Assembly: GCF_000346465.2 (NCBI RefSeq)
Contig: NC_034016.1
Location: forward strand, 148,958-212,957
Reading direction: 5' to 3'
Source: Prunus persica
Taxonomy: Eukaryota; Streptophyta; Magnoliopsida; Rosales; Rosaceae
DNA: 64,000 bases
Shown here piece after piece: positions 5,703-62,078 of the stretch. Every line of letters begins with the position of its first letter. Position 1 is the first letter of the stretch. The translations under genes were made by a program, and so were the position numbers. Below the pieces are notes generated by a model. The model saw only the letters and a list, made by a program, of their open reading frames with translations, was not told the DNA's origin and did not search any database.

Positions 5703-5793
5703 CTCGACACTTGAATCCCCTCTTTCTCTATCAGCCCAGCTGGCTCCTTCACCCCTCAGGCCCCGTCGCCTCTTCTTCACCCCACATTCTGCT

Positions 5794-16063: not shown

Positions 16064-16114
<51 letters not shown>

Positions 16115-16510: not shown

Positions 16511-16525
16511 AACTTGGGGGACTAC
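16511..16525 (+). other. Polypurine tract for plus-strand priming
   Basis: AACTTGGGGGACTAC abuts the 3' LTR. A near copy, CAACTTGGGGGACTAG, lies about 115 bp upstream. Confidence 0.7.
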
Positions 16526-24324: not shown

Positions 24325-24547
24325 AGACTCGTAAATAAAAAAAGTAAGAAATAGCAAAGCAAAAACGCAGCAGTTGAAGAAAGATTTACAAGAAGCGCTT
24401 TCCCTTCCTCCCCTCTTGTTTATCTAGATAGATTAATCTAATAGTCTTTATAATAAAAAGATTGTAAGACTGATTTATTATTAGCGACCGATTTCCCTCT
24501 CCTCTCCTCTCGTCTCTCTTCTTATTTATTTATTTCTTTATTTGTGA

Positions 24548-24568
24548 ATGTGTGTGAAGAAGTTTTGA
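24548..24568 (+). other. Six-codon upstream ORF in the PHD-gene leader
   Basis: A short ORF reading MCVKKF and a stop precedes the main start codon by about 100 bp. If the leader is transcribed from the TATA box at 24317, it could lower translation of the main frame. The effect is inferred. Confidence 0.4.
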
Positions 24569-24666
24569 GAGAGAGTTTTGAATTTAAAACACAACAGCAG
24601 AAGCAGAAGCAGCAGCAAATCAGTAACAAAACTAAACACAGTACCAAATACGAAACCAGATCTACT

Positions 24667-24996
24667 ATGGTCATGACCGAGAGACCTTCTAAGCGGCTCA
24701 GGAGGAGGGTGACCGCTGATCTCCCGGACTTTTTCACCTTCCCTCAGCCCCACAGCGACGTCGTTCCCCCACAGCCCTTCCGTGAGAGCGTCCGCAGCTT
24801 CCTCATTCGTCACGCGCACGTCACGTGCCCATCCTCCTCGTTGTTCCCGTCCTTGGTCACCTCACAGATCTCGCTCCGGGTCGGGCATCCGGGCGACCCG
24901 ACCGCCGTTCTTCCCTTGGACGTCGTAGAGGAGGACGTCACCCGCTCCAGACGATCCGTCTACTGCGACCAGTGCCGAGTCGTTGGTGAGTCCACT

Positions 24997-25043
<47 letters not shown>

Positions 25044-27268
25044 ATAGACGTAGATATACGTACGTTCAGATGGATGCTTTGCTTTACTCTCACTCGCTTT
25101 TTTGTTTTTGTTCGTAGAATATGTATTTTTATTTTGAGCTTTGGATAATGTTTTACGTTTGCTTTCTTTGACAAAAATTTTACGTTTGCTTCCTTTGACA
25201 AAAATACAAACAATAGGTTGGAGTGGGCATCCGGTGTGCAAAAAACGATACCATTTCATAATAAGAAGAGGCGCTGGGACTTGTGAGACTGAGATTCCCT
25301 TGCACCAGCAGCAGCAACAACAATACAACAACAACAACAAAAGTAACAACTGTTGCAATTCTATGAGTGCGACAATGGAGGATACGGATGATGTTGAAGA
25401 GTGGGCGTATCTTCAACTTCATGATAATACTCATCTTCTCCATGCCGTCATTCACTCCAACGGCTTTGCCCACCTTCTAACCCTCAACGGCAGACAAGGA
25501 GGCTCCACCCTTCTCTCTGGCCGTCACATTTTGGATTTGTGGGATAGGCTCTGTCAAACCCTCTCTGTCAGGTCCATAATTCCTTCCTTACTTGCCTTTA
25601 CTTCAAGCCATTGTCAAAATTATAATCATTCTCGTTGTTATAATTATTTTTTGATTGAGATATAAATGGGAAGTGATACTGAATTGCATTACATGTTTTG
25701 AACTTGAACAATGAACAGGAAAGTTAGTGTGATGGATGTTTCGAAGAAGTATGGGATGGAGTATCGATTGCTGCACACAATCATCAACGGCCATTCTTGG
25801 TATGGAGATTGGGGCTATGAATTTGGTGCTGGGAGCTATGCTCTCACTCAAAATTCTTACCACAAAGCAGTGGATACCCTGTCCAGCTTGCCTTTGCACC
25901 CTTTTCTATTCCAACCGAGGAGACCCCGGACTCGCATGCAGTCTGTTATTGCTTTTTACCAATCTTTATCCGACACCCAACTCCCAACAATCAAGGATCT
26001 TTTTACATACATGTTGAGTCTCATCCATAGATCTCGCAAGCCCACATCGTGTAAGAAACCCCAGCATCACACTTCCAATGCTTTATGTGCATGGACGGCC
26101 AATGATGTCGAACATGTGCAACAAGCTATGATCAAGCTGCTACTTGCAGCAGTTGGTGTTGGAGAGGATAGCTGGGTGTCAAAGCGTGCCCTCAGGGCCG
26201 CATTGTACAAGAGTTCCTCTCCAGAGCTTCTTGATTACAGCCTTAAACACCTGGGAGGGAAGTTGGCAGCCAATGGTATGGTAATTAAGGCCCGATGCAG
26301 TCCCGCTTCAATTGATGTAGAATACAGGTAAAGAGACCAGCATTGTTTGGTTCAATTGCTTTTGTCAACTTATACATGCTTTGAGTCCTGACACTCATTA
26401 TGGTAACAGGCTTGAGCCATTGATTATTGGGAACGTTGATGGATCCGAGGATTTGAATTATCCATCGGAAGAGCAAATCCTCTGTGACCTCAAATTTTTA
26501 TATGATTCCATTATCCACCCTGACACCATGCTAAGCTATACACCTCAAGCGATGAGGGAACGTGTTATTGACGCAGCAACTAAGCTTCTCGATTGCAAGC
26601 AATTTGTGAAGGACTACATGCCTGATAAAATGGCAGCGGAAAGCTCCTGTGGCATTCACCTCTGGTGTCATGTGGAGCTTTCAGATGAACCCAAAGATGA
26701 TTTGGTCCTGCCTCCAGAACTGATTGTCTTGCCTTTGAATGCAACCGTTGCTGACCTTAAAAGGGAAGCTACCATGGCCTTCCAGGAAGTATATGCCATG
26801 TTTAAGAGGTTTGAAGTTGAGGAATTGCTTGAATATGGCTCTATAAATGATTCATTTACAGTGAAACTTCTGGTTGGAACATGTGGCTCGATTCGTTTAA
26901 AAGGGAGATGCCCTGCAAAACATGGGCTTAACCGTTTCCGGATGGAGAGAGGACTTGAAAGCTGGACCGTTGATTGCACATGTGGGGCCAAGGATGATGA
27001 TGGGGAGAGGATGTTGGCTTGTGATACATGTGGTGTTTGGCAGCACACAAGGTGTGCCGGGATTCATAGCTCTGATGCGATCCCTGCAAGGTTTGTTTGC
27101 ATGAGATGTGTAATCTCATACCGCAAGAAAAGCCAAAACACCAATGATCCTGCCAAGGAAGCTAATATTAGTGTCCCCTTCTCCAACACAACTTGCAGAG
27201 CCAAGGCATCTGCAACTGATAGTCCAAGCGTTGCATCAAACATGAACATGACATTTAGTGTACTTTGA
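24667..27268 (+). CDS. PHD-finger protein of the MMD1 family (At1g33420-like)
   Basis: This is a nuclear chromatin-reader type protein. Four exons, 24667-24985, 25217-25571, 25719-26327 and 26410-27268, join in phase with GT-AG introns to give 713 residues. The N-terminus (KRLRRRVTADLPDFFTFP) and YCDQCRVVGWSGHPVC are hallmarks of this plant family. A glutamine/asparagine-rich insert follows (about residues 138-155). The C4HC3 PHD finger is at about 617-661, starting CTCGAKDDDGERMLACDTC, and would bind two zincs and probably a histone tail. MMD1/DUET, a relative, is needed in male meiosis; the At1g33420 branch itself is less studied, so a meiotic role is only suggested. The previous gene (KNS4 type) is the same neighbour as in Arabidopsis, from memory. 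Intron 1 holds a CT microsatellite (about 25004-25039). Confidence 0.92.
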
Positions 27269-38140: not shown

Positions 38141-38156
38141 ACAAAAAGTCGTATCT

Positions 38157-38662
38157 TGTTGTAAAAGTTTTTGTGTGGAGCCCACTAACTATTCATTTGG
38201 AGACTTTGGGTAACGTTTGTCTGCAACTTTCTCTTATTGTACATTCACGGGCATCATTTCCTTAGCCTATAAATAAGCCTTTGCATGTACACCTCCGAGA
38301 GAAGAGAAAGGGAGAAATGGAAAGAAACAAAGAAGAGGAAAGAGAGAAGAGAGAAGAGGAAAGAGAAGAGGAAAGAAAGAAGGGGAAAGAGAAAAGAGGA
38401 AAGAGAGAAAAGGAAAGAGACAAGAGGAAGAGAAGGAAGAAAGAGGAAAGAGAGAGCAGAGAGAAATTCTCCTAGAGAGAAAATTCAGTGAGCCACACAT
38501 ATTGTAAACACTAAAGTTGTAGCCCTATTATTTTACATAGTGGAAAAGTTACTACTGCTGCTCTCCGGGGACGTAGGCATAGCCGAACCTCGTTAAATAC
38601 TGTGTCTCATCTACTTTACGTGCAGCTCAATATTCGCACATATTCCAGGTTATTTTATAACA
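38157..38662 (+). repeat. 5' LTR of element A
   Basis: The repeat is 506 bp with a TATA box TATAAATA at 38268-38275, then a purine-rich GAAA/GAGG tract (about 38298-38473) likely in the transcribed R region. A U5 region shared with element B follows. Confidence 0.93.
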
Positions 38663-38910
38663 CGTTATCAGCACGAGAAGCTCTCAGGTATAATTTTTGT
38701 GCTGCACTATTATTTATACTACTAACCATTATGTTGATGTAAAGAAGAAAAGCCAACATAATTTGTCTAGCTTTCAAACTAATGAATCATGGTGTTGATA
38801 AGATTCCAACGAAGAAAAAAAAAGGGGGGGTTGGAAAAGCTTCCTACAGTAATTTTCACTTTCTTATATTTTTAGTGGTGGTTTTTATTCCCACATTTAT
38901 TTTATTTATG

Positions 38911-39267
38911 GTATGGTGTAGGTTTATTACCCATACGACAATATTTAAAGGGTGGTGCGGGTTTATCGTCCACGTCTTTGCTTATTTATTTTATTTATGG
39001 TATGGTGTAGGTTTATTACCCATACGGCAATATTTAAAGGGTGGTGCGGGTTTATCGTCCACGCCTTTGCTTTTATTTAAATGTATGGAGCAGAATTAGT
39101 GCCCATACAAGCACGTTTACTTTACAAATTTAATTTACCGCACATTTAATTTTATTTAAGGTATGGTGCGGGATTAACGTCCATACAGCAAGCAATTTAA
39201 TTTATGAATTTAATTTCCCGCACATTTACATTTATTTAAAGTGTGGTGCGGGTTTATCGTCCATACC
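38911..39267 (+). other. Leader array of repeated 26-nt stem-loops (element A)
   Basis: At least seven units share one design: 6-bp stem, one unpaired base, 3-bp stem, 7-base loop. Examples are 38911-38936 (GTATGG/CCATAC and GTA/TAC), 39083-39108 (GTATGG/CCATAC and GCA/TGC), 39161-39186 (GTATGG/CCATAC and GCG/CGT) and 38952-38973 (GTGG/CCAC and GCG/CGT with one wobble). Units are separated by ACCGCACATTTA-type or T-rich spacers. The stems change while pairing is kept, which favours a role as RNA structure. Lying just after the primer site, they could act in packaging or in binding a helper Gag; this is inference. Confidence 0.75.
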
Positions 39268-39310
39268 AGTAATTTATTTACCAGCAATTTATTTTATGGA
39301 CTAAATGTGC

Positions 39311-40430
39311 TGTATGATGAGTTTTTTTTTACAGTATATAGATCAGGACCAGAAGTTCCTTGATCCTCATCATACAATTACATCAGGACTTGAAGATCCT
39401 TGATGATGATGCTAATATAAGAGCTGGCAGTCTCTCCGGTACTATATTTGTAAACATGTGATTGGACTTGAGGGTCCTTGATCCCTGACATGTAAATAAG
39501 GACCTGGGGTTCCTTAATGATGTAACAGTACCGTATTGATTCATAATGCCGTACACATTGATGATAACTGTACTGGCAGATGAATAGATACGTATTCATG
39601 ACTTGATGAATAGTACTATTCACATGAATAGTGACGTATGCATAAATATTAACCATTTTGGGTAAACCGTCACTATATACAAAAGGGAACCTGCAGTTCC
39701 TTAAACTCATGGATGAGCAATTAAATGAGATGCCAGAAGTTCTTCAAAATATGGACAATTATGTAAGGGCTTGAAGTCCCGAAATATGTACAGAAAATTG
39801 TAAAAATGTCCATACCATGAGAATATGTGGCTTTGGCCTGAAGTTCAAAATTTAACAGTGTTGAGAACCTGAAGTTTCAACAATTAAATGGACAACCCTT
39901 GAGGTATTATTGCAAATTGTGGTATGCCACATATTTCTTTGGCATAAGAAGATGATGAATTTAAAGTTCGATTCTGTTATAATCGACACCTCAAGGAAGA
40001 AATATATTTTGTGAATTCCGGTTGTTAAGAATACACCGCGAAATGGATAATATCAATATAAACCTCAAATAATGAATTGAGGCTCCCCACATATTTTGTT
40101 ATATCTGGGCCGGAAGCCCATGGATCCAAATATATGAGAGATCCTGAACTTGAAGTTGTCGGTATATAGTAGTTAATGCTCTTCACTACTATATTGCGAT
40201 ATTATCATGGCTTTTACTCAATTCACATTTCATGTCCATTTGAAAAGGGCAAATAAATTCTGAGTTTGTGCCCAGGCCAAAAGTTCCGGGCTACCATGCA
40301 ATTTGGGAGAGACAATGTGGTTATTTGAACCTATAAGGCACAAGGTTCCAAACCGTCATTTTGAAAAGACGTAAAAACCATAGGTGCAAGTTTAAGAATG
40401 TGCGCAATTATTATTACAGGAACATACAAC
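39311..40430 (+). other. Interior run of small stem-loops with CTGAAG-like loops (element A, first part)
   Basis: Units of another design follow the leader array: outer stem, GGA/TCC inner stem, 8-base loop, often one bulged T on the 3' side. Clear cases are 39341-39365 (GATCA/TGATC), 39381-39405 (CATCA/TGATG), 39497-39516 (TAA/TTA) and 40106-40120 (TGGGC/GCCCA around CGGAA). An 11-bp stem, TGTATGATGAG (39311-39321) with CTCATCATACA (39366-39376), encloses the first. No protein is encoded here. Confidence 0.65.
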
Positions 40431-40489
40431 AGATAGATTTTTTCCACCTGCAATGAAGGTGCAGGTCCTGTAAAATCTATAAAATTACA

Positions 40490-41041
40490 TTATGTTCTGG
40501 AAGCCTCTGAAGGAAGAGTACGGCGCCTCTTAAGCTTGGCCATGAGCTTCTCGTGGTCTCCCAAAATTCTTTCATTGGAGACCTGCAGCATGTCTAGCCT
40601 TCTCAGTGTATCAACAGAGTACGAACTCACCAGTTTCAACAAGGAATTATTCTCTCCTTTAAGTTTCTCAACCTCCTGTTGAGACTCATGAAGCATTCTT
40701 TGAAGAGACGAATTTTCAGTTGTCAGCTTCTCAACCTCGTTTGCTCTAGCACGCAAACGATCAGCTATGTTAGAAACAGAAGCAGCACTCTGAATGCTAA
40801 AAGCCATTGAGTCATCAATAGCCTCTTCCTCAGACCTCCCTGTTAACAGCATTTCATCCATCGGAGTAATGAAATTCCTAGCTACTATGACAGCAGTAGC
40901 ATCATTCATCATCACAGAATCATTAACTGTGAGATGACGATTTTGGGATACAAAGGATGGACGCCAAACTTTGGCGTCACTGGTTGTTGTGGGAGCATCA
41001 TTTAAATTGAAATAATTTGGGCAGGAAGAAGAGGAAGCCAT
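40490..41041 (-). CDS. Antisense ORF of element A, coiled-coil protein of unknown function
   Basis: The 183-residue frame runs against the direction of the LTRs. The N-terminal half (starting MASSSSCPNYFNLND) has no family I recognise. Residues about 90-170 form a heptad-rich coiled coil (LTTENSSLQRMLHESQQEVE), ending in a basic KLKRRRTLPSEASRT tail. Element B has the same ORF with about 13 residue changes, no frameshift and the same start and stop, although the surrounding DNA has indels. That suggests the frame has been kept by selection or by recent common descent. It lies mid-element, away from LTR promoters, so it would need its own promoter. It may be a captured host gene or an element-encoded accessory protein. 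Confidence 0.7.
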   Translation of the reverse strand: MASSSSCPNYFNLNDAPTTTSDAKVWRPSFVSQNRHLTVNDSVMMNDATAVIVARNFITPMDEMLLTGRSEEEAIDDSMAFSIQSAASVSNIADRLRARANEVEKLTTENSSLQRMLHESQQEVEKLKGENNSLLKLVSSYSVDTLRRLDMLQVSNERILGDHEKLMAKLKRRRTLPSEASRT

Positions 41042-42199
41042 TTTTAAGAAGGTTTCGAAGAAAGTCTCAGGAAAACTAAAGTTTCAGAAAATGAAGAAAT
41101 TTGAGTCGAAACGCAGTTGCTCCAATCAAGTTTTGCAAAGGCCATATCTATAGGAGGAAATATGGCTACTGTTTTTCAGGACCCCAATATCTTCTCGAAT
41201 CCTCATATTATCTTTTTCTTTCCCAGAGTCCAACACTTCACGTAGCCTCTAATAATGCCTGTCGGCACTTTCGGCGTTTTCAAGTATTATTTTCAAAGTC
41301 GATCTTGCTTTACGGATTTCACGGAGCTACTTTTTCAAAAGCATCCCGAGAATCTCGCAATTTTCCTATGGTTAATTTGAAATTCACCGGTTCTACCTAT
41401 TCATTGTATTTGTGTATAAATGTGTTACTAACGAAATTTTCTTTGCAGAAGACATCCAGTTTACTCCATACCTAGTGATGCGATATCTACTTGTTTTTCT
41501 TATCAGTGAGCACTCAATATGCCCGAGAAGCAAGACTATCTCTGATCATCCATTCAGGAAGCGAGACTATCCCTGATCACGTTTCTGCCACATCCGGGAA
41601 CTGTGAAGGCAACCTTATGCTCTAATCTCCGGAAGTTCTTCTAGACTAGAAGAAATGAGAGCTTGTTGTTTGCTCCCACCAGCTTCCTTCCCTGATTGCT
41701 TACCTTCTCTTGCAATCAATATCACAATTTTTTTTGCATTTTTTCTCTTTTTGTAACTCTCTGTTCATAAGAGATTTTATTTCTTTAGAATGAACATCTG
41801 AAGAATGAATCCATGCAGTGATCCTAACTCTGAGAGTTATTTGTTTTTGACAGAGAAAAGAATTGTGATTTTTGCTCCTGCAGGATATAACAAGATCATC
41901 AAGCGATACTTTATATTTACTGGGCCGATACGAGCTTGAATGATACTTGAGAAAAGTTTCTCCCACTTAAGGATGTAAGCAATACTTGTGTTATTTTATG
42001 CTTATATACCTATTTGATATTTTATCTTGAAAGGTAACCAAATGGGGAGATAAGTCCGTTCCAAAAGAATGGCTTGTATGTATCCATGAATTATTAACGC
42101 AAATTTTACAGATTGCAAGTTGGATACATTGATAATACACTGCACAGATTAAAGTCCCATAAGAACAGAATATGGGTATAGCAGTGATCAATATGATGC

Positions 42200-43083
42200 A
42201 CGCCTGTTGCGTAGCAAATGATGTGGATTGAAGTCCCGAAAGGTCAATCCTTTGACATGTCAATATTGATATTATGCACGCCTAATGCGTAGCAAATTAT
42301 ATGGGTTAAAGTCCCATAAATTAATTGACATGTATGTTTTAATCTGTGGCATGCCTGCAGCATGACAGATATATGGGTTCTAAATGTTCCAACTCCCTAA
42401 ATGGAGATTATCCACGCCCTACTATAAAATAACGCTCCATTGGAGGTTATAATCCACATTCTCACATAATAAAAGCCCCCTGCAGTGGCTTGGGTACCCA
42501 AAAGCAAAGAAATGCTTATAATTGATGCATGCGCATGCACATGAGAATGGTGGGATCATGAATTGATGAATGACAATTTTTGATTTTGGAGTAGCTACTC
42601 AAATCATCAATGGGCTGTGTTGATTGGAACCACGTTCAATTATTAAATGTCGACAATATCATTGGCCAAAATGGAAAGAGGTAATTCCATTATAGATAAG
42701 AATGAACGTGAAAGAACAAACCCACAGTACGAACCCCAAATTTGTCAATACTGAAAGTTATACTTGGGTGTTCGGAATAAAACGGAATATACCTACTTTG
42801 TATGACACAATGTTTCTGGCAGAAACAAGGAATGTTGGGTTTTCTCCATATTTACAGATTCAATTGTGTCCCCCTTATTACACAATTACGGAGACCAACA
42901 TATTATCTTTAAGGGTTATTAAATGCACGGAGCATATCGCCAGAAGCGATTTCCTAAAGATGTATAAATAGCTGGGTAAAAGCTATATAATGTGTCATAA
43001 AGTTTAATCCCTTTTAGACAAAATCCTTTGAGAGGATTGACATTACATAAAGCAAGTCCCTAAAGGACATGTGCTTGAAGCAC
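42200..43083 (+). other. Interior run of small stem-loops (element A, second part)
   Basis: Between the antisense ORF and the 3' LTR are further hairpins with 5-7-base loops, mostly beginning CT or TT: 42200-42212 (ACGC/GCGT around CTGTT), 42278-42290 (ACGC/GCGT around CTAAT), 42300-42318 (TATGGG/CCCATA), 42350-42364 (CATGC/GCATG around CTGCA, inside ATCTGT/ACAGAT), 42393-42406 (CTCC/GGAG), 43022-43038 (AATCCT/AGGATT), 43056-43068 (GTCC/GGAC) and 43071-43083 (GTGC/GCAC). No supported gene lies here. Confidence 0.65.
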
Positions 43084-43748
43084 AAAATTTGTACTCAATA
43101 TTAATATGCATAAATTACCTCAGTGAGTACATTGATTATAATGTGATTGCAACACATTAAAACTTCTGCAGAATTCACGAAATATTTATCTCGACTTAAA
43201 AATCGAGCATTATGCCAACGAGATTCTTGCTTATACTGAGAAAGTATTGAAGCATTTTTATGAGGATTATCCGTTGGGCACTTTAAGGATTTTCCGGAAG
43301 TATATTGGACCGGACATCATATTTTCCAGATAAGGCTCAACTCTATCACTATCATTTTGGGATGATGTGAGGTATATTTGATGCTATCTCCGCATAACAC
43401 CATGTATGGGCATATTCTTTCATATGATCTTACAAATAGCCCAGGTTTTGTTGGAAACGCGGACTCTGAAAATTTCTATGATTTACATAGAGATAGCTCA
43501 CTGGAAATATATTTACTATATGAATTGTTGGTGGCTACATCATTCACTCACTCCGAAAGATTCTCACTCCAAAGATAGTTATGAAGACATCAGGGGGAGA
43601 TATTAATCAGGGGGAGCATCCAGAAGTATGCTATACAGATTGTTGTACTCTTCTTTCTTCCTTTCATCAGTTCTCTACCTTACTAGGTTTTCACCAAGCA
43701 AAGTCTGATGAAGCAACTGACATATCATCTGTGGTCTCCAAGGGGGAG

Positions 43749-44254
43749 TGTTGTAAAAGTTTTTGTGTGGAGCCCACTAACTATTCATTTGGAGACTTTG
43801 GGTAACGTTTGTCTGCAACTTTCTCTTATTGTACATTCACGGGCATCATTTCCTTAGCCTATAAATAAGCCTTTGCATGTACACCTCCGAGAGAAGAGAA
43901 AGAGAGAAATGGAAAGAAACAAAGAAGAGGAAAGAGAGAAGAGAGAGGAGGAAAGAGAAGAGGAAAGAAAGAAGGGGAAAGAGAAAAGAGGAAAGAGAGA
44001 AAAGGAAAGAGACAAGAGGAAGAGAAGGAAGAAAGAGGAAAGAGAGAGCAGAGAGAAATTCTCCTAGAAAGAAAATTCAGTGAGCCATACATATTGTAAA
44101 CACTAAAGTTGTAGCCCTATTATTTTACATAGTGAAAAAGTTACTACTGCTGCTCTCCGGGGACGTAGGCATAGCCGAACCTCGTTAAATACTGTGTCTC
44201 ATCTACTTTACGTGCAGCTCAATATTCGTACATATTCCAGGTTATTTTATAACA
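43749..44254 (+). repeat. 3' LTR of element A
   Basis: The repeat is 506 bp and follows the polypurine tract AAGGGGGAG. Its TATA box is at 43860-43867. Six differences from the 5' LTR were seen by eye, all transitions. Confidence 0.93.
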
Positions 44255-45405
44255 CATCTTTGATTATTTGTTGCAAGCAAATTCGTTAAAAATAAAAAAA
44301 AAAATAAAAAAAAAAAAAAACTGTAGCAAAAAAAAAATCAAAAATCAAATGTGCGTTTCAGTTCAAATTTTTAAAAGGCTACGTATCTATACGACCTCGT
44401 TACTGTGCGAGGTTATATAAAATAAAAAATAGGTCGAATGCGGCGTCTTTTTCCTCGCGTTTGCCTCTGCAACATGGTAGCCATCGGCTATAAGGCGCCC
44501 TGTTTAGAAAAAAGATAAAAGAACCCAGCAGCACCGGCTGAGTCCTGCGCGCGAGTCGCCAATTAATCTTTTGGACATCTGAATTCCGCCGCACCCATCG
44601 CCTCGCAGTCGCCGAATTTGGGTCCTCATCTCCACTCGGTTTAATTCCTTACCAGTACGGTGTAAGTTTTTCGTTCGCATTATAATCCTTGCTTCTTAGA
44701 CTCCTATTTATGTCTGTTTCATCAAAAAGTAGTTGTTCTCTGTATGTTTGTTTGCTTATGTTCTGTGTAGAAATTGAATAACCTACTTACTCAACGAAGC
44801 AATTCTATTTTCTGGGTTTCTATTTATTATTTTGTTATATTTTTCTCGATAAGTGAATCATCCAATTTTTCGCAAGCCGTGCAGCTCCTTGTTTAGTTCG
44901 TTTAAATCATTTGGTTTATATTATTTTTGGGATTTTTCGTGATATTTAGAGCTTAGCTGAACTAACCCAAATTGTTCGGTTAAGCAGCTTTATTGAGTTG
45001 TAAATTGTTTGTTTCTGGCCAACAACAATGAGAATATGAAATTATTGCTGCATATTAGTAAGTGATAAACGTTTGTAGGTCATTATTTTTTAGTAGATTT
45101 TGTATTGAGTTAGTTTTCTTTGGAACTGTATTAAATGAGTTTCAAATGTGAATTATGTACACGCAGCTATCTGGTTGCCTTAGCATGTGGAGTTTAATTG
45201 CATTTTTGTGCTTTCTCAAAGATAGGATGGATTTACTAATTTTTTTCTTGGACATAGAAATGTTTGGATTCTTATTTTTTATCAAGTAACCTGAATTGTA
45301 TGTGGGGTATATGCCTTACTATCTCAGTTACTTATAGATATGGGTTTCCTTCAATCTCAATGACCGGAACCTTACTTGGCCATGTATTGCAACAGATAAT
45401 CAAAG
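44255..45405. other. Promoter, leader and probable leader intron of the BCCIP gene
   Basis: After A-rich remnant sequence, 44580-44660 is GC-richer and ends in a good donor (GGTGTAAGTT near 44660). TTGCAACAG near 45395 is a good acceptor just before the start codon. A leader intron of about 730 bp is therefore likely. No separate gene is supported. Confidence 0.5.
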
Positions 45406-51283: not shown

Positions 51284-51720
51284 TGTTATAAAATAAATGA
51301 AGCCCACATAGGTAAAATTAGGTGGGAATTAGTGGAGATAAAGCTAGTAGGTATTAGTCAAAAGATGGGATAATGATGTTGGGGATAAATCATTATGTCT
51401 CCATTAAGAGCCATTTGCTTTGCCTATAAATAGGCATTATATTTGCTTGTAAAGACACATATAGAAGAGGAAGAGAAGGAAGAATGAGGGTGAGTGAGTT
51501 GAGAGGAAAGAGAGCAAGAGAGAAATTCTCCAAGAGAGAAAATTGAGTGAGCCATACCTATTGTAAACACTAAAGTTGTAGCCCTATTATTTTACATAGT
51601 GGAAAAGTTACTGCTGCTGCTCTCCGGGGACGTAGGCATAGCCGAACCTCGTTAAATACTGTGTCTCATCTACTCTACGTGCAGCTCAATATTCGCACAT
51701 ATCCCAGTTATTTTATAACA
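51284..51720 (+). repeat. 5' LTR of element B
   Basis: The repeat is 437 bp with TATAAATA at 51425-51432. It shares U5 with element A from GAGAGAAATTCTCC onward, but has a different U3 and a shorter purine-rich tract. Confidence 0.93.
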
Positions 51721-51976
51721 CGTTATCAGCACGAGAAGCTCTCAGGTATAATTTTTATGCTGCACTATTATTTATACTACTAACCATTGTATATATATAT
51801 GAAAAGTTGATGGTAATATAATATGCTATATCTATTCACTTTTCTATTACTAACCACTAACAAAAATGGACCCTTGGTAATACTAAACATATTATCAGTG
51901 GGAGACCGTTACTAATACTAACATTTTTCTTATTTTATTCGGTGGTGGTTTTAACCCCATATTTATTTTATTTACT

Positions 51977-52551
51977 GTATGGTGTAGGTTTATTACCCAT
52001 ACAAGCACGTTTACTTTATCGCAAATTTACTTTTACTTAAAGTATGATGTGGAATTAACCCTCATACTTTATGAAATTTACTTTACCGCACATTTATTTT
52101 ATTTACTGTATGGTGTAGGTTTATTACCCATACAACAGTATTTATTTAAAAGGGTGGTGTGGGTTTATCGTCCACGCCTTTACTTTTATTTAAATGTATG
52201 GAGCAGAATTAGTGCCCATACAAGCACGTTTACTTTATCGCAAATTTACTTTTACTTAAAGTATGATGAGGAATTAACCCTCATACTTTATGAATTTACT
52301 TTACCGCACATTTAATTTTATTTAAGATATGGTGCGGAATTAACGTCCATATAGCAAGTAATTTATTTTATCGCACATTTACTTTTACTTAAAGTATGAT
52401 GAGGAATTAACCCTCATACTTTATGAATTTACTTTACCGCACATTTACTTTTACTTAAAGTATGATGAGGAATTAACCCTCATACTTTATGAATTTACTT
52501 TACCGCACATTTACTTTTATTTAACGTATGGTGCGGGTTTATCGTCCATAC
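51977..52551 (+). other. Leader stem-loop array (element B)
   Basis: At least ten units with the same designs as in element A are present. 52327-52352 has ATATGG/CCATAT where other units have GTATGG/CCATAC, a paired change. Four units of another type (from about 52039, 52258, 52396 and 52456) pair AAGTA with TACTT and, in three of them, TGAGG with CCTCA. The array is longer than in A by extra copies of the latter unit, so units expand and contract. Confidence 0.75.
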
Positions 52552-53790
52552 AAGCAATTCATTTACCAATAATTTAATTTACAAGCAATTTATTTTATGG
52601 ATTAATTGTGTGGTATGATGAGTTTTTTTTTTTACAAGGATACAGATCAGAACCAGAAGTTTCTTGATCCTCATCATACAACTACATCAGGACTTGAAGA
52701 TCCTTGATGATGATATTGATATGAGAGCTGACAGTCTCTCTAGTACTATATTTGTAAACATGTGATAGGATTTGAGGGTCCTTGATTCTTGATATGTAAA
52801 TAAGGACCTGGGGTTCCTTAAATGATGTAACAGTATTATATTGGTTAATAGTGCAGTACACATGAAAATAACTGTATTGGCAAATGTACTGTACACATAA
52901 ATAGTGCCGTATACATAAATAGTGATGTATGCATAAATATTTACCATTTTGGGTAAACTGTCACTATTCAAAAGGGAACCTGCAGTTCCTTAAACTCATG
53001 GATGAGCAATTAAATGAGATGCCAGAAGTTCCTCAAGATATGGACAATTATGTAAGGGCTTGAAGTCTAGAAATATGTACAAAAAATTGTAAAAATGTCC
53101 ATACCATGAGAATATGTGATTTTGGCTTGAGGTTCAAAATCTAACAGTGTTGAGAACCTGAAGTTTCAACAATTAAATGGACAACCCTTGAGGTATTATT
53201 GCAAATTGTGGTACGCCACATATTTCTTTGGCATAAGAGAATGATGAATTTAATAAAGTTCGATTCTGTTATAATCGACACCTCAAGGAAGAAATATATT
53301 TTGTGAATTCCGGTTGTTAAGAATACACCGTGAAATGGATAATATCAGTATAAACCTCAAATGATGAATTGAGGCTTCCCACATATTTTGTTATATCTGG
53401 GCCGGAAGCACATTGATTCAAATATATGAGAAATCCCGAACTTGAGGTTGTGGGTATATAGTAGTTAATGCTCTTCACTACTATATTGTGATATTATCAT
53501 GGCTTTTACTCAATTCATATTTCATGTCCATTTGAAAAGGGCAAATAAATTCTGAGTTTGTGTTTAGCCCAGGCCAAAAGTTCCATACGTTGAAATATGA
53601 AATTTGGGAGAGTCGATGTGGTTATTTGAATCTATAAGGCACAAGGTTCCAAACCGTCATTTTGAAAAGACGTAAAAACCACAGGTGCAAGTTTAAGAAT
53701 GTGCGCAATTATTATAACAGGAACATACAACAGATAGATTTTTTCTACCTGCAATGAAGGTGCAGGCCCTGTAAAATCTATAAAATTACA

Positions 53791-54342
53791 TTATGTTCTG
53801 GAAGCCTCTGAAGGAAGAGGACGGCGCCTCTTAAGCTTAGCCATGAGCCTCTCGTGGTCTCCCAAAATTCTTTCATTGGAGACTTGCAGCATGTCTAGCC
53901 TTCTCAGTGTATCAACAGAGTACGAACTCACCAGTTTCAACAAGGCATTATTCTCTCCTTTAAGTTTCTCAACCTCCTGTTGAGACTCATGAAGCATTCT
54001 TTGGAGAGACGAATTTTCAGTTGTTAACCTCTCAACCTCGTTTGCTCTGGCACGCAAACGATCAGTCATGTTAGAAACAGAAGCAGCACTCTGAATGCTA
54101 AAAGCTATTGAGTCATCAATAGCCTCTTCCTCAGATCTCCCTGTCAACAACATTTCATCCATTGGAATAATGAAATTCCTAGCTACTATGACAGCAGTAG
54201 CATCATCCATCATCACAGAATCATTAACTGTGAGATGACGATTTGGGAATACAAAGGATGGACGCCAAACTTTGGCGTCACTGGTTGTTGTGGGAGTATC
54301 ATTTAAATTGAAATAATTTGGGCAGGAAGAAGAGGAATCCAT
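53791..54342 (-). CDS. Antisense ORF of element B, coiled-coil protein of unknown function
   Basis: The 183-residue frame has the same start, stop and length as the ORF of element A and about 13 substitutions. The changes concentrate in the N-terminal half (for example A2D, N46D, T59I), while the coiled coil and the basic KLKRRR tail are nearly unchanged. The direction is opposite to the LTRs. Function is unknown; the same alternatives apply as for the element A copy. Confidence 0.7.
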   Translation of the reverse strand: MDSSSSCPNYFNLNDTPTTTSDAKVWRPSFVFPNRHLTVNDSVMMDDATAVIVARNFIIPMDEMLLTGRSEEEAIDDSIAFSIQSAASVSNMTDRLRARANEVERLTTENSSLQRMLHESQQEVEKLKGENNALLKLVSSYSVDTLRRLDMLQVSNERILGDHERLMAKLKRRRPLPSEASRT

Positions 54343-57107
54343 TTTTAAGAAGGTTTCGAAGAAAGTCTTAAGAAAACTAAAGTTTCAAAAAAAAAAAATG
54401 AAGGAAGTTAAGTTGAAACGCAGTTGCTCCAATCAAGTTTTGCAAAGGCAATATCTATAGAAGGAAATATGGCTATAGTTTTTCAGGATCCCAATATCTT
54501 TTCGGATCCCCATATTCTCTTTTTTCTTTCCCAGATTCCAAAACTTCACGTGACCTCCATTAATGTTTGTCGGCACTTTCGGCGTTTTCAAAGTATTATT
54601 TTCGTCAAAAGCCGATCTTGCTTTGCAGATTTCACGGAGCTATTTTTTCAAAAGCACCCCGAAAATCTCGCAATTTTCTTATGGTTAATTTGAAATTCAC
54701 CGGTTCTACCTATTCCTCTTATTTGTGTATAAATGTGTTACTAACGAAATTTTCTTTGCAGAAGACATCCAGTTTTTCTCCATACCTAGTGATGCGATAT
54801 CTACTTGTTTTTCTTATCAGTGAGCACTTAATATGCCCGAGAAGTAAGACTATCTCTGATCATCCATTCAGGAAGCGAGACTATCCCTGATCACGTTTCC
54901 GCCACATCAGGGAACTGTGAAGGCAACCTTATGCTCTAATCTCCGGAAGTTCTTCTAGACTAGAAGAAATGAGAGCTTGTTGTTTGCTCCCACCAGCTTC
55001 CTTCCTTGATTGCTGAGCTTGTTGTCTGCTCCCACCAGCTTCCTTCCCTGATTGCTTACCTTCTCTTGCAATCAATATCACAATTTTTTTTTGCATTTTT
55101 TCTCTTTTTGTAACTCTATGTTCATAAGAGATTTTATTTCTTTAGAATGAACATCTGAAGAAAGAATCCATGGAGTGATCCTAACTCTGAGGGTTATTTG
55201 TTTTTGACAGAGAAAAGAGTTGTGATTTTGTTCTTGCAGGATATAACTAGATCATCAAGCGCTACATTATATTTACTGGGCCGATACGAGCTTGAATGAT
55301 ACTTGAGAAAAGTTTCTCCCACCTAAGGATGTAAGCAATATTTGTGTTATTATATGCTTATATACTTATTTGATATTTTATCTTGAAAGGTAACCAAATG
55401 GGGAGATAAGTCTGTTCCAAAAGAATGGCTTGTATGTATCCATGAATTATTAATGCAAATTTTACAGATTGCAAGTTGGATACATTGATAATACAATACA
55501 CAGATTAAAGTCCCATAAGAACAGAATATGGGTATAGCAGTGATCAATATGATGCACGCCTGTTGCGTAGCAAATGATGTGGATTGAAGTCCCGAAAGGA
55601 CAATCCTTTGACATGTCAATATTGATATTGTGCACGCCTAATGCGTAGCAAATTGTATGGGTTAAAGTCCCAGAAATTAATTGACATGTATGTATTAATC
55701 TGTGGCATGCCTGCAGCATGACAGATATATGGGTTCTAAATGTTCCAACTCTCTAAATAGAGATTATCCACGCCCTACTGTAAAATAACGCTCCATTGGA
55801 GGTTATAATCCACATTCTCACATAATAAAAGCCCCATGAAGTGGCTTGGGTACCCAAAAGCAAAGAAATGTTTATAATTGATGCATGCACGTGCAAATGA
55901 GAATGATGGGATCATGAATTGATGAATGACAATTTTTGGTTTTAGAGTAGCTACTCAAATCATCAATGGGCTGTGTTAATTGGAACCACGTTCAATTATT
56001 AAATGTCGACAATATCATTGGCCAAAATGGAATGAGGTAATTCCATTATAGATGAGAATGAACGTGAAAGAACAAACCCACAGTACGAACCCCAAAAGAT
56101 GTTAATGCTGAAATTTATACTTGGGTGTTCAGAATAAAAGGGAATATATCTACTTTGTATGACACAATGTTTCTGGCAGAAACAAGGAATGTTGGGTTTT
56201 CTCCATATTTACAGATTCAATTGTGCCCCCTTATTGCACATTTACAGAGACCAACATGTTATCTTTAAGGGTTATTCAATGTACGGAGTATACCACTAGA
56301 AGTGATTCCCTAAAGATGTATAAATAGCAGGGTTAAAGCTATTTAATGTGTCATAAAGTTTAAATCCCTTTAACCAAAATCCTTGAAAGGATTAAAATTG
56401 CATGAAGCAAGTCCCTGAAGGACATGTGCCTGAAGCACAAAATCTGTACTCAATACTAATGTGCATAAATTGTCTCAGTGAGTACATGGATTATAATGTG
56501 TTTGCAACACATTAAAGCTTCTGAAGAGTTTAAGAAATATTTGTCTCGACTTAAGGATCGAGCATTATGCCAACGAGATTCTTACTTATACTAAGAAAGT
56601 ATTGAAGCATTTTTATGAGGATTATCCGTTGGACACTTTAATGATTTTCCGGAAGTATATTGGACCGGACATCATATTTTTCAGATAGGGCTCAACTCCA
56701 TCACCATCATTTTGGGATGATGTGAGGTATATTTGATGCTATCTCCGCATAACACCATGTACGGGCATATTCTTTCAAGTGAACTTACAAATAGCCCAAG
56801 TTTTGTTAGAAACGCGGACTCTTAAAATTTCTATGATTTACATAGAGATAGCTCACTGGAAATATATTTACTTACTCAACTACGAGAATTATTAATGGCT
56901 ATATCCTCCACTCACTCCGAAAGATTCTCACTCCAAAAGATAGTCATGAAGACATCAGGAGGAGATATTAATCAGGGGGAGCATCCAGAAGTATGCTATA
57001 CAAATTGTTGTACTCTTCCTTCCATCAGTTTTCTACCTCACTAGGTTTTCTCCAAGCAAGTCTTTAATGATGCAACTAACATATCACATGTGGTCTTCAA
57101 GGGGGAG

Positions 57108-57544
57108 TGTTATAAAATAAATGAAGCCCACATAGGTAAAATTAGGTGGGAATTAGTGGAGATAAAGCTAGTAGGTATTAGTCAAAAGATGGGATAATGA
57201 TGTTGGGGATAAATTATTATGTCTCCATTAAGAGCCATTTGCTTTGCCTATAAATAGGCATTATATTTGCTTGTAAACACACATATAGAAGAGGAAGAGA
57301 AGGAAGAATGAGGGTGAGTGAGTTGAGAGGAAAGAGAGCAAGAGAGAAATTCTCCAAGAGAGAAAATTGAGTGAGCCATACCTATTGTAAACACTAAAGT
57401 TGTAGCCCTATTATTTTACATAGTGGAAAAGTTATTGCTGCTGCTCTCCGGGGACGTAGGCATAGCCGAACCTCGTTAAATACTGTGTCTCATCTACTCT
57501 ACGTGCAGCTCAATATTCGCACATATCCCAGTTATTTTATAACA
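57108..57544 (+). repeat. 3' LTR of element B
   Basis: The repeat is 437 bp, preceded by GGGGGAG and followed by the ATGTT target duplication. Its TATA box is at 57249-57256. Confidence 0.93.
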
Positions 57545-57549: not shown

Positions 57550-59020
57550 GTAATTATTTATATAATACAAAAATGGGTGAAATTACATGAATTCTTGCTG
57601 CTGCTTTCTTCGGAGTCGTTGGTGGAATCAAGGCATCCACTGGAGGAGATGGTGGTTAGTAAAGGCCAAATCTAGAGTGGGTTGGGTTTAAAGTGTTGCA
57701 ATCTGTTGGGGTTTTTTTTCGTCCAAAGGCTCATTCGGGCTTTGTTGATTCTTGGATCGCCAGAGAGTGATGAATGCAGACTTCGTTGCTCCTTTGTCTG
57801 AGTTAGCGAGAACTAGGCCCAAAGTATCCCGAGGGAGAAGCAAGTCCCGGGGAAGTACTTTGTTCTTCCTCCAGCGGCTGCGTGTTTTGTGTTGATGTTT
57901 CCGGCAGCTTGACGAAGAGTTGAAGATGACTTGCCGATGTTAATATGAGATTATGTGAGCTTGGCATGAGAGCTTGGAGTGTGGGAGCTAAAGACCCACA
58001 AGTTTAGCAAATGAGAATGCATGTGCTTGGTTTGGTGTTGGATATTTTTGAGTTTGGTGTTGATAATTTGTTGTGTGTGGCTATGGCTATGGGGATTTAA
58101 GAGTTTCAAGAGAAGGAGGATGGAAGGAAAAGCTTGAGGTTTGAAGGCTATGATGTTTAAAGCTTGGAAGGAATGAAAAGCTTGGAGCTAGGTGATGCTT
58201 TATGGGGGTTGGTGGCTGCTGAGATGCTCGCAGCAGCTAAATAGATTGTTGGCTGAAGAAAAATTAGAAGCTGCTGGAATGCTTGCAGCAGCTGAAGAAA
58301 GGTGAGTTCTCATAGTTGTTGAGAAGCTTGCAACAACCAAGATGGGTTGGTTTTAGTTGAGAAATGTCTATCAATTTATAGAAGGTGAGGGTTTTCCTTT
58401 ATTTCCAATAGGTAAATGGAGGTGCTCGAACCAGCTTATTTCTAATGGTTAAAAGAGAGCACTAGGACATGTTATTTTTCAGCAGGTGAAGCCAGGTACC
58501 ATAAACTGATTATTTCCTATGGGTAAAAGGAAGTGCGGAAACAGCTTGTTTCCAGCGGGTAATAGGGAGTGCTGGAAAAGGCTTATTTCCAATGGATAAA
58601 GCTAGTATTTGGAAAATGACTATTTCCTATAGGTAAAAGAAAGTGCTTGGAAAATATCTCATTTGCTCACCCATATTGGAGAACTCTAAGTAGTGGGCTT
58701 GGACTTTGGTCCTCCCAAGTAGCTAGCTCAAAGTCTCCATTATCCAAGAGCTTCCGTGGGCCTTGTGGACCTCCGTAACCTTCCACACCACAATTCCTCG
58801 TGCAAGCCCCGTAAACCGCATGACTTGAGTTCATGTGAGCTTGATAGGTGATTGACATAGAAAAAATGTATTATTGATTTGGCATGACATGTAACACTAT
58901 TTATATATTTATTTAATAAATTAATTTCTAAAATACAGCTTGAATTAACACATGACAAACATTATATTATATTCGGCTTTGAATGTCTTTGAGCTTCCCG
59001 TGACTTGTTTGGGCCTCAAC
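57550..59020. other. Repeat-like non-coding region
   Basis: No gene could be supported. The middle has repeated phrases such as ATTTCCTATGGGTAAAAGGAAGTGC-like 25- to 60-bp units (about 58400-58640), which look like a decayed minisatellite. Several words are shared with 34257-36169. Confidence 0.4.
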
Positions 59021-59234
59021 ACAATCCATCACTTATGTCTAATTCCGTTAAAGTTTCTGTTAAATTTAAGGGCATTTTTGTCAATTCACTATAACTAAAA
59101 ATAATTATAACCCAAAAAAAAAAAAACAGAATTTAAAAAATATAAAAGTTAACCTGATTACACCATAGCTTCCACACAAAAAAAGTTAACCTAATTACAC
59201 TCACCAACCCATCCATGAATGAGCATGCTATGGC

Positions 59235-60096
59235 CAGTGGCGGATCCCGGAATTTTTCAAAGAATGTGCAATTTTTAAAAGACTAAAAATTCACAAAGAA
59301 CTCAAGCAAGGTCCAAGGTTCAAGTTTAATATCCTTGTAGTGTTTTAAAAAAAGGCTAAAAATTCAAAAATTAATTTAGACAACCAAATGCCCTTAGAAT
59401 TTAAATAATACTAATACCATTCATAATTTAAACAAATAAGAGTTCTACGTGTATTACTAATTGATTATAGTCTGTATGGAATATCAATTAATATGAACAA
59501 AATTCATGCCAATGACACAATTAGTTTATCAAAATTCATATCAAATATGAACAAAATCCATGTCAATTACATAATTAATATAACAAAAAGAAATACTAAT
59601 TAATCTAACTAAAAGCACATGTGATTTGGAGGTCACGTGATTAAAAGTTTGGGGTAATTTTCGGTGAATTTTTTGGCACACATATGAGTTTTTAATGAAT
59701 TTTTTAAGTTAGGCCAATTAGAAATGGACATGTGTCAGCTTGCTATTGGACCATTTAAAAAAGAATCAAAAGTGAGAAGCGCGCAGAGTCAGTCTTCTTC
59801 CTCGAAGAGCCTCTACACTCAACTTTAGTTCTAGAAAAATTTCGAAAATTCATAACTTTGGTTGTGAAGCTCCGATTGATGAACGGTTTTCTCCTACATG
59901 CTCGTGAGATCGAGACCAACAATCTAAGGTAAATATTCAGGGTCTTACACAGCAGCAAACAAAATAACATCTTTGAGGCATTTAGTCGAACAATTTGTGG
60001 GCACTAGCAAAGGGGCAAATTCCGACATCCCAAAGGAAGTTTCCGGCCAGGGGAGGTGCAGCTGCACCTCCTTGCGCCTCTGTAGATCCGCCAGTG
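59235..60096. mobile_element. Non-autonomous hAT element
   Basis: The ends are CAGTGGCGGATC and GATCCGCCAGTG, 12-bp inverted repeats with one mismatch. They are flanked by the 8-bp duplication GCTATGGC (59227-59234 and 60097-60104). Both the CAGTGGCGGA-type end and the 8-bp duplication are typical of plant hAT transposons. The 862-bp interior has no transposase frame. Confidence 0.85.
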
Positions 60097-60479
60097 GCTA
60101 TGGCTATGGCTATGCACCTAAATTAAATCTAATATAAACGGTATATATCGCAGGTGGTCCAAATGATGGATGAGTTTCTGATTTTCCCCCCTAAAGTTTT
60201 GTATAAAAAGATAAAAATGAGTTTTGAATCTTTAGCTCTCCATGAGAGTGAGGTTCAATTTGGGATTGCTGTCAGTTTTAAAAAAAATTTGCTTATACTG
60301 TGCTTTGAAAATAATTAGCTGTAAAGTAAAGCAACTCTATGTTTGGTAAACAATATTTTTAAAGTGATGTTAGTACAAAAAGCAGTGTCAAAATTGTCTG
60401 GTAAAATTTAATATAAAATTGTTGTAACTGTGAATAATGACTAAAATAGACATGATGTTGAAAATGTTATATACTAATC

Positions 60480-60650
60480 ATGTGGTGGTAGTAGTGGTGA
60501 TGGAGTGAAGGTGGTGGCGGTGATGAAGGTGGAGTTGGTAGTTGTGGTAGTGGTGGTGTTGGTGGTGCGAATGGCAATTGTGGAGGTGGGGGTGGTGGTG
60601 GTGGTGGTGGTGGTGGTGGAGGAGGTGGTGGTTGTGGAGGTGGTGTCATT
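60480..60650. repeat. GGT-rich trinucleotide repeat
   Basis: Imperfect (GGT)n, purest at 60580-60625. A polyproline frame on the other strand is a by-product of the repeat. Confidence 0.9.
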
Positions 60651-61018
60651 TTTTTAAATGAATGATAGTATTTTGGGAATTCAGAAATTCATTAAAGGTT
60701 CATCTTTGCTTCTTTTGTAAGCAGCTTTGAAAAGCAACTCAGAGCCCGTTTTTAAAAGCTGCTGTCAAAAGGCCACTGCTTTTAAAATAATCGGGATATA
60801 TGTATTTTTTTTTTATACCAAACACCTTAAACTACTTAACTTTAAAGTGAGAATTGGTGTTGAAAAATGGTAGGGAAGGTGTGATGCAATAGCTTAACTT
60901 TTTTTACAGAAATTTTTTCTGTTTTTTATAATTATTTTTAGTTATAGTGAGTTGACGGAAATGCCATTAAACTTAACAGAAATTTTAACGAAGTTAGACA
61001 TAGGTGGTGGATTGCAAC

Positions 61019-61145
61019 ACTTTACAAAGTCCAGGTTGTTAAAAATAAAAATTCAAAATCCAGGTGGTATATTAGTGCACATGTCCAAAAGTTCAGGTAA
61101 TATCTATGCAAATTTTACACGTGTATATATATGTGTGTGTGTGTC

Positions 61146-61176
<31 letters not shown>

Positions 61177-62078
61177 GGCTGTACAAGATGTACCACGAGT
61201 CGTATTACCATAGTATTGTATAATCACTGAATGAGTTATTATGCTTATCAATTAATTAAACCCCAAAAGCAGTTAAACTAAAGCCCTTGCAATGTTTAAT
61301 GACTCGGAAGTAGAGTGGCAAACATCATCAAATTGGCTTGTGGGTAAAGGTTTCCGTGGTTTTACTTGTGGCCTCTTCAATCTTGTGATGGTATTTCTCG
61401 AAAGTCTAAGACCGTTTTGTTTAGGGTCTTGTGTTGCTTTGGTGCTTTTTTTCTTTCTTGTGCTCTCCCTTTGGGAGTAATTTGTCCCCTCCTCTTGTCA
61501 TGGTTTGTGTTGTGCTTCCCTCCTCTTTTCTATACCTTATTTTATTGGTTAAAATAAAACATGCATTACTTCCTTCCAAAAGAAAAGAAAGTTGCATATC
61601 TGCAATGAACTTGAGAGAATGTTACCTCTCGATACTAGCCATAAGTTTAATATGATTTCATTATGAAGCACGCACAAGTTCAAATTTAAAAAATTACCAA
61701 TTTGTAAAAATATATAGACACAACACAGCCATGGATTGCAAATGTTTTGTATTATATTGTTGATTAATGGAAGGACCTTTCATTGATTGCATGTTATGTT
61801 ACATCCTTGTCCCATTGCTAAATACGTTTTCAACTCTAATCTTCATTTCTCATCATCATCATCAGGCGACATTGTGAAAACAACCATAACCATTCTATGC
61901 TGCCGCAATGCTTTTTACAGTTTACCACTATATTTGTTTGGGGATTGATTTTCCTACTCCCTTTAACGTTGGTGGATACATCTGCTGATAGCTCCTTAAA
62001 GGTTCTTTTCTTTAAATAAGTCTAACAATGCAAGTGCCTGCAGTGAATCCAATTCCAAATGTTAAAAAGCCAAGCCAA
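61019..62078. other. Intergenic region, no gene supported
   Basis: It holds a GT/TA/GA compound microsatellite (about 61125-61177) and AT-rich sequence. Overlapping short frames at 61292-61655 have no recognisable features. Confidence 0.5.

Follow-up and report, generated by a model that had tools for sequence, protein, structure and literature searches.

How does a long terminal repeat (LTR) element with no recognisable gag or pol gene come to be present in hundreds of copies? The question is raised by element A, which occupies positions 38157–44254 of a 64,000-nucleotide stretch of Prunus persica DNA (assembly GCF_000346465.2, contig NC_034016.1, positions 148,958 to 212,957 of the forward strand), referred to here as the window and numbered from its first letter. 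Related copies of element A number in the hundreds in the 227.5-Mb P. persica assembly. An earlier note, made from the letters alone, described the interior of the element as an array of small stem-loops of recurring design and proposed that the RNA itself is the functional product, perhaps as a multivalent platform for the Gag protein of a helper element. Our analysis makes it very probable, on comparative sequence grounds, that the sense RNA has been selected for hairpins, because the stems of the leader covary, a loop motif is strand-specific and the rule describing that motif held in a second element type, here represented by locus L081. That the predicted hairpins, with their C(YNGAA)G loops, are docking sites for a helper's Gag is a further step, to which we give a probability of a little under one half (about 0.48).

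The main landmarks are as follows:

38157–38662, + strand: 5' LTR of element A, with TGTT...AACA ends and 98.8% identity with the 3' LTR
38663–38677, + strand: primer binding site CGTTATCAGCACGAG, complementary to the anticodon arm of tRNA-Ile(AAU)
43740–43748, + strand: polypurine tract AAGGGGGAG
43749–44254, + strand: 3' LTR of element A, identified by LTR pairing
51284–57544, + strand: element B, of the same family as A but with a different 5' LTR part; LTRs 51284–51720 and 57108–57544, 99.3% identical

A common loop on varied stems

Hairpins were counted as contiguous Watson–Crick stems enclosing loops of 4–9 nucleotides and compared with 100 dinucleotide shuffles. Element A has 49 hairpins with stems of at least five pairs (32.9 ± 5.3 in shuffled sequence) and 20 with stems of at least six (9.8 ± 3.0), values that none of the 100 shuffles reached. 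The corresponding counts for element B are 56 against 35.8 ± 4.2 and 31 against 10.8. No excess at five or six pairs was seen in five control regions, where the observed count was reached by 15–81 of 100 shuffles; control region 58500–63500 has an excess of stems of at least eight pairs (5 against 1.1). The recurring small stem-loops are thus a genuine feature of these interiors.

The earlier note had sorted the hairpins into three designs. The second and third are both real and merge into one rule, which we term class 2: a C–G pair closes a YNGAA loop on the sense strand, a single bulged base is common on the 3' side, and the stem sequences vary. Hairpins of this kind, with some close variants, are found at the following positions of element A:

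39311–39376, + strand: extended hairpin in which an 11-bp outer stem, TGTATGATGAG/CTCATCATACA, encloses the class-2 hairpin 39341–39365; homologous in L081
39381–39405, + strand: class-2 hairpin CATCA-GGA-C(TTGAA)G-a-TCC-t-TGATG
39497–39516, + strand: class-2-like hairpin with loop CTGGG
39684–39702, + strand: class-2 hairpin GGAAC(CTGCA)GTTCC
39767–39779, + strand: class-2 hairpin GGG-C(TTGAA)G-TCC
39859–39882, + strand: class-2 hairpin TGTTGA-g-AAC(CTGAA)GTT-TCAACA, its motif present in 29 of 29 aligned genomic rows
40106–40120, + strand: class-2 hairpin TGGGC(CGGAA)GCCCA, weak by energy (z −0.90)
42197–42216, 42275–42294 and 42350–42364, + strand: 3' block hairpins with loops CTGTT, CTAAT and CTGCA
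42811–42827, + strand: class-2 hairpin TGTTTC(TGGCA)GAAACA
42936–42950, + strand: class-2 hairpin ATCGC(CAGAA)GCGAT; in B one pair is changed from G–C to A–T and another is broken
43053–43084, + strand: two adjoining class-2 hairpins, GTCC(CTAAA)GGAC and TGTGC(TTGAA)GCACA
43615–43632, + strand: class-2 hairpin AGCAT-C(CAGAA)G-t-ATGCT, close to the 3' end

The motif is strongly biased to one strand. In the 5' and 3' hairpin blocks of element A, the 7-mer CYNGAAG occurs 12 times on the sense strand and not at all on the antisense strand (shuffles: mean 0.77, maximum 5 in 300). The sense and antisense counts are 11 and 1 in element B, and 15 and 21 in the remaining 51.6 kb of the window. At least three flanking pairs accompany 10 of the 12 occurrences in A and 7 of the 11 in B; elsewhere they accompany 2 of 15 on the sense strand and 3 of 21 on the antisense strand (5 of 36). 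The 3' flanks were also swapped among CYNGAAG occurrences, in 10,000 trials for each element; 5 trials reached the observed value for A and 66 did so for B. A wider loop type, YNG(A/C)A or YNAAA, was scored among C-N5-G hairpins with at least three further pairs, and gave sense to antisense ratios of 14:0 among 22 such hairpins in A, 11:0 among 23 in B and 4:5 among 196 in the rest of the window. Across genomic copies the mean numbers of sense and antisense motifs are 7.4 and 0.07 in the 5' block (29 rows) and 2.0 and 0 in the 3' block up to position 43260 (30 rows). In assembling the sets of genomic copies, 11, 7 and 6 rows were lost to incomplete coverage, and in a further set 5 of 34 lacked an anchor. 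The strand bias of the loop points to RNA rather than to DNA.

A covarying leader array

Between the primer binding site and the first class-2 hairpins lies an array of hairpins of the first design, referred to here as class 1:

38911–39266, + strand: class-1 leader array, each unit with 6 pairs, 1 unpaired base, 3 pairs and a 7-base loop
38911, 38950, 39000, 39039, 39083, 39161 and 39241, + strand: starts of the class-1 units in A
51960–52551, + strand: class-1 array of element B, which is longer

Extraction by loop anchor gave 60 distinct units, 13 of which were dropped as not class 1, judged by sequence with the pairing in view. In the 47 that remain, 91.5% of 423 pair cells hold standard pairs, compared with 84.2 ± 0.7 when partners are shuffled, and 50 two-sided changes are seen, compared with 19.2; neither value was reached in 500 shuffles. 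A set of 36 units from which nothing was dropped, and which keeps five rows of another class, is 84.9% paired against 75.8 ± 1.1 (shuffle maximum 80.2 in 1000). These shuffles ignore kinship among units; a control that retains it, in which the partner is slid by 1–3 columns, lowers pairing to 25–56%. The inner stem occurs in the variants GTA/TAC, GCA/TGC and GCG/CGT, and in one unit from a further primer-bearing locus (L075) an outer G–C pair has become T–A by change on both sides. The first design is therefore upheld by compensatory changes between units. As regards covariation, which the earlier note had put forward as a check, the leader units pass.

At L075 and a similar locus, L076, a different LTR end is followed by ~0.8 and ~1.3 kb, respectively, of unrelated sequence and then by a class-1 array; an array junction was also placed at window position 51816 onward. 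The class-1 array may mark a place of leader exchange. The 1.5 kb downstream of the primer site holds one sense motif in L075 and none in L076, with no antisense motif in either.

The rule in a second element type

L081 is a primer site of another element type, the 1 kb downstream of which was taken after the loop rule had been fixed. Its alignment with element A at E < 0.001 is confined to two places, the primer site and a ~75-bp segment surrounding one hairpin. This 1 kb contains five sense and no antisense CYNGAAG motifs, compared with 0.33–0.35 per kb per strand at 12 other genome loci, and among its seven C-N5-G hairpins four have loops of the sense type and none of the antisense type. 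The hairpin that it shares with A retains its outer stem, TATGATGAG/CTCATCATA, in A, B and L081, with folding-energy z-scores of −3.93 in A and −3.13 in L081 (0 of 200 shuffles in each case) and −2.23 in B (4 of 200).

Genome-wide there are 308 occurrences of the hairpin TGAACYNGAAGTTCA and 19 of the reversed pattern; the 308 come mostly from one repeated family, and the count shows location, not independent enrichment. On one contig, C1, 74 of 94 such hairpins follow an exact primer site on their own strand at a distance of no more than 1.3 kb. Viewed from the primer sites, 28 of 30 of the L081 type on C1 are followed by TGAACYNGAAGTTCA within the same distance and on the same strand, and the trait has therefore been kept through the L081-type family. 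The stem is found at 0 of 33 and 0 of 30 sites of two other primer types. Among the antisense open reading frames (ORFs) listed on C1, one was assigned to 12 of the 33 and 4 of the 30 sites of those two types, compared with 0 of 30 of the L081 type.

Priming of reverse transcription and the search for a helper

The primer binding site CGTTATCAGCACGAG stands directly 3' of the LTR and places a C opposite the first anticodon base of tRNA-Ile(AAU), the base that is edited to inosine. The tRNA-Ile anticodon-arm string is found at 20 genome loci (reversed controls, 0), and ARAGORN called a tRNA-Ile(AAT) at all four of the loci that were fetched. A 40-base string comprising the primer site and the start of the leader has 170 exact copies in the genome, and two related strings have 407 and 21 sites; read backwards, each has none. 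Half-tRNA-Ile priming in plant LTR elements has been reported for the Bianca lineage of Ty1/copia, where it is ascribed to A-to-I editing, and in the part of that account covered here Bianca is the sole lineage with such a site (PMC6317226). Because of this shared site, reverse transcription of element A is probably of Bianca type. The likeness is one of primer site: Bianca is defined by reverse transcriptase phylogeny, and element A, unlike Bianca, has no polyprotein.

The earlier note saw no enzyme motif in the interior. None was found here, but the interior does encode a conserved protein at 40490–41041 on the minus strand (see below). A tblastn search with eight Copia pol frames of the same genome gave best E-values of 0.39 for A and 1.5 for B, compared with 0.35 for reversed sequence. 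The segment 43230–43600, which by eye resembles the decayed end of a copia reverse transcriptase–RNase H region, matched the eight frames no better than reversed controls did. A sense ORF at 41101–41475 belongs to no Pfam family. No Rfam family reaches its gathering score in the window, and none appears up to an E-value of 1 in the interior.

At the ends of element A the target site reads TATCT (38152–38156) and CATCT (44255–44259), alike at four of five bases; element B has an exact 5-bp duplication, with ATGTT on either side. By their TG...CA ends the LTRs of A are 506 bp each, their identity having been measured by BLAST, and the interior limits of 38663–43748 given in the earlier note are correct. 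The interiors of A and B are ~91% alike. The 5' halves of their LTRs (A 38157–38421, B 51284–51464) have no mutual match and the 3' halves are ~89% alike, a pattern that would fit an exchange of the promoter part. Host genes in the window include a POT/NRT1-type transporter (225–3104) and a PHD-finger protein of the At1g33420 type (24544–27268).

The antisense open reading frame

Two ORFs run against the direction of the elements:

40490–41041, − strand: antisense ORF of element A, 183 amino acids, coiled-coil; no other conserved coding sequence was found in the interior
53791–54342, − strand: antisense ORF of element B

The frame is uninterrupted in 137 of the 150 best genomic matches, ranked by similarity, and an internal stop is present in only 1 of 24 distinct ungapped full-length copies. 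The ratio of non-synonymous to synonymous differences per site (pN/pS) is 0.38 between A and B (10 synonymous and 13 other changes) and 0.27 when copies are pooled against A; the remaining five frames give 0.46–1.37 between A and B. The pooled set has 25 rows representing the 24 distinct copies (locus L031 being element A itself), with 7 of the 30 loci L031–L060 left out, four of them partial or gapped. On these sequence comparisons the antisense ORF is under purifying selection.

Searches found 49 related proteins, the named ones mostly from Prunus with one from Actinidia, and a profile built from an alignment found 1,444, the named ones among the 120 listed being from Prunus, Actinidia, Alnus and Malus; the weaker matches beyond those 120 may include unrelated coiled coils. 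No homologue was confirmed in viral or prokaryote contigs. AlphaFold2 predicts a single long, confident helix (residues 71–174) and a poorly predicted N-terminus, and a lysine/arginine-rich stretch lies close to the C-terminus. Foldseek returned no solved structure at E ≤ 0.001. A further search against solved structures gave a best E-value of 0.0009, to a coiled coil only, and Pfam gave coiled-coil matches that all fall under the curated cut-offs. The protein is probably an accessory factor. The proposal that the RNA itself is the functional product therefore needs qualification: selection on the sense RNA is very probable, but the element also has a protein-coding frame with the signature of purifying selection and with relatives in other eudicots.

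The regions containing the antisense ORFs (40451–41100 in A, 53751–54400 in B) have 10 hairpins against 4.0 expected and 9 against 4.4, respectively, without the loop motif. Open antisense frames of 194–219 codons at C4:7280091, C6:599620, C3:19519562 and C3:17957652 are candidates for further subfamilies.

What the hairpins may do

According to the reading we prefer, the sense RNA would fold into the leader array and a dispersed set of hairpins with the common C(YNGAA)G loop. The hairpins would act as many weak binding sites for the Gag of a helper, perhaps a Bianca-type copia element, and the Gag-bound RNA would be packaged and then reverse-transcribed from the half-tRNA-Ile primer. By analogy with dispersed viral packaging signals, many copies of one loop on different stems could allow a multivalent RNA to be picked out against cellular RNA. 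We infer that a protein reads the loop, since the loop is fixed, the stems are varied, one strand is used and more than one element type is involved, as would be expected of a protein recognition site that is used many times. We likewise infer that this protein is Gag: the element needs a Gag, which makes that of a helper the obvious candidate. As the earlier note suggested, the best-fitting function would be that of a multivalent platform to which a helper's Gag binds. A broader proposal is that the half-tRNA-Ile families share an RNA address code, C(YNGAA)G on changing stems, with elements lacking gag and pol riding on a common Gag; we regard this as somewhat unlikely.

A number of observations weigh against the preferred reading. 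The folding-energy signal is weak, and the sense strand is no better than the antisense: in 80-nucleotide windows the mean z-scores (sense/antisense) are −0.66/−0.77 for A and −0.69/−0.79 for B, compared with −0.29/−0.07, −0.10/−0.26 and −0.35/−0.62 for three other stretches of the window and −0.79/−0.84 for a Gypsy-like ORF. Comparison of folding energy with shuffled sequence, which the earlier note had made a test of its idea, comes close to failing. Folded singly, nine hairpins have z-scores of −0.90 to −2.79, and as folded by RNAfold several class-2 loops comprise 3 or 8 nucleotides rather than 5. In the 5' block of A alone, the strict Watson–Crick count is 10 against 9.8 in shuffled sequence, because many of the stems there contain bulges, and the hairpin excess of the antisense-ORF region does not carry the loop motif. 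The loop rule was chosen on A, to which B is homologous, and the stem at 40106–40120, intact in A, is broken in B. In class 1, two of the five measures are unremarkable: five pairs show a two-sided change against 3.5 expected (35 of 500), and 12 further pair types are seen against 11.7 (301 of 500). Of the 47 units, 15 lack a standard pair at the second position of the stem. One of the five motif sites in L081 is common with A by descent. Two further loci with the same primer site, L077 and L078, have two and no sense motifs and no and one antisense motif, respectively, in the 1.5 kb downstream, with no match to A or B. No helper was identified: among the matches listed on C1 (28 to RVT_2 and 25 to Retrotran_gag_2), none lies within 9 kb downstream of any of 138 primer sites.

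The comparisons of closely related copies point the same way. Single-sided stem changes between A and B, at a divergence too small for pair counts, are kept and broken in ratios (counted from A and from B) of 5:5 and 4:12 in the 5' block and 10:13 and 16:18 in the 3' block; for two-sided changes the ratios are 1:1, 2:1, 2:0 and 0:0. Among recent copies hairpin diversity is not below that of the surroundings, random placements being as low in 1714 and 4223 of 5000. Differences among recent copies are probably for the most part post-insertion, when selection is not expected, and the argument therefore rests on deep comparisons.

Four other explanations may be set beside this reading. The hairpins might act in cis with no element-encoded binder, as a structured leader for translation, export, stability or small-RNA silencing. 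The restriction of class-1 hairpins to the leader fits this, as does the start of class 2 ~0.7 kb past the primer site in A and ~0.25 kb past it in L081, but hairpins are found in the 3' block too, bulk folding energy is near that of shuffled sequence, and where the loop is fixed while the stems vary, recognition of a sequence seems a better account than structure in bulk; on balance we think a cis role unlikely. The main rival to Gag as binder is the element's own antisense coiled-coil protein, which would help the sense RNA along as its adaptor or export factor. Its gene is open in most of the best-matching copies, selected and conserved across eudicots, it sits between the two hairpin blocks, and the protein is modelled as one long helix, with a basic stretch near the C-terminus. 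Against this, the L081-type sites on C1 have the hairpins yet none of the listed antisense ORFs, and neither Pfam nor the structure searches recognised an RNA-binding domain in the protein, which leaves it, in our judgement, a decidedly unlikely binder.

Two explanations dispense with present function. One or two ancestral units could have been spread by tandem and template-switch duplication, leaving relics. Tandem duplication is evident among the class-1 units, no constraint is seen in recent copies, and A–B changes show no bias towards keeping pairs. Such relics would not readily account for class-2 stems that differ in sequence around a fixed, strand-specific loop, for two-sided class-1 changes above shuffled levels, or for a rule that holds in L081 despite its minimal alignment to A, and this explanation seems to us quite improbable. 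Chance, in the sense of A+T-rich, repeat-rich sequence forming hairpins through its base composition, would suit the modest mean z of −0.66 and the shuffled-level strict count in the 5' block; it is made highly improbable by the overall hairpin excess, the strand-biased motif, the leader covariation, the flank-swap test and the 5:0 strand ratio in L081.

Relation to known systems

The earlier note knew of no described family with this layout. The general layout has in fact a name, the large retrotransposon derivative (LARD), but the combination seen here and the common loop on varied stems were not found in the literature searched. LARDs such as Sukkula of grasses share with element A the LTRs, primer site, polypurine tract and long interior without gag or pol, as well as target site duplication (exact in B, partial in A). 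The conserved interior RNA structure of LARDs is represented here by local hairpins rather than a global fold. In the LARD accounts, as far as covered here, the elements are described as without protein products, whereas the family of A keeps a conserved antisense ORF, and dispersed hairpins with one common loop motif are not mentioned. Terminal-repeat retrotransposons in miniature (TRIMs) have short LTRs and almost no internal domain, unlike the ~5.1-kb interior of A.

Conserved antisense ORFs are reported for maize Grande, rice RIRE2, Silene Retand and PvRetro13 (PMC7264820, in the sections covered), which are gag-pol elements with the ORF placed between pol and the 3' LTR; that of A is mid-interior, between hairpin blocks. 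The window itself contains a Ty3/gypsy-type element (5174–17036; terminal repeats 5174–5685 and 16525–17036, 99.6% identical) with an open gag-pol frame of 1954 codons and antisense ORFs between pol and the 3' repeat, one of which (13291–14211) has a weak Transposase_28 match under the curated cut-off. A Transposase_28 domain has been reported for Retand elements (PMC6317226, in the part covered). Like the family of A, HODOR is a high-copy LTR element of Rosaceae (PMC6901071, PMC8558331, PMC13334179); the published excerpts, which allow comparison by description only, report it from apple and pear at 9.7 kb. The TGTT/AACA elements of Rosaceae were considered and rejected, as their ends are given as TG..TT or AA..CA (PMC5659011, excerpt) and those of element A are TG..CA. 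Thus LTR elements without gag and pol but with conserved RNA structure (LARDs) are already known, as are antisense ORFs in gag-pol elements; our literature search found no description of this hairpin set or antisense ORF, which is no proof of absence.

The closest parallel for the hairpins is with the dispersed packaging signals of RNA viruses and hepatitis B virus, in which many stem-loops share a loop motif; the core protein of hepatitis B virus is described as recognising -RGAG- loops (PMC6281560, PMC7612645). A common loop on varied stems is found at the sequence level in element A also. The viruses supply the binder themselves, as coat or core protein, whereas for A it would come from another element. 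Hepatitis B virus, too, reverse-transcribes its RNA.

Implications

To our knowledge, the way in which an element lacking its own genes is selected for packaging is largely an open question in plants. The C(YNGAA)G hairpin, which occurs in more than one element type, is a short, defined RNA ligand with which to seek a protein that binds it. Should that protein prove to be the antisense coiled-coil protein, this would be a first clue to the role of a protein family found in several eudicot genera. Should it be Gag, the spread of a high-copy family that lacks both gag and pol would have an explanation.

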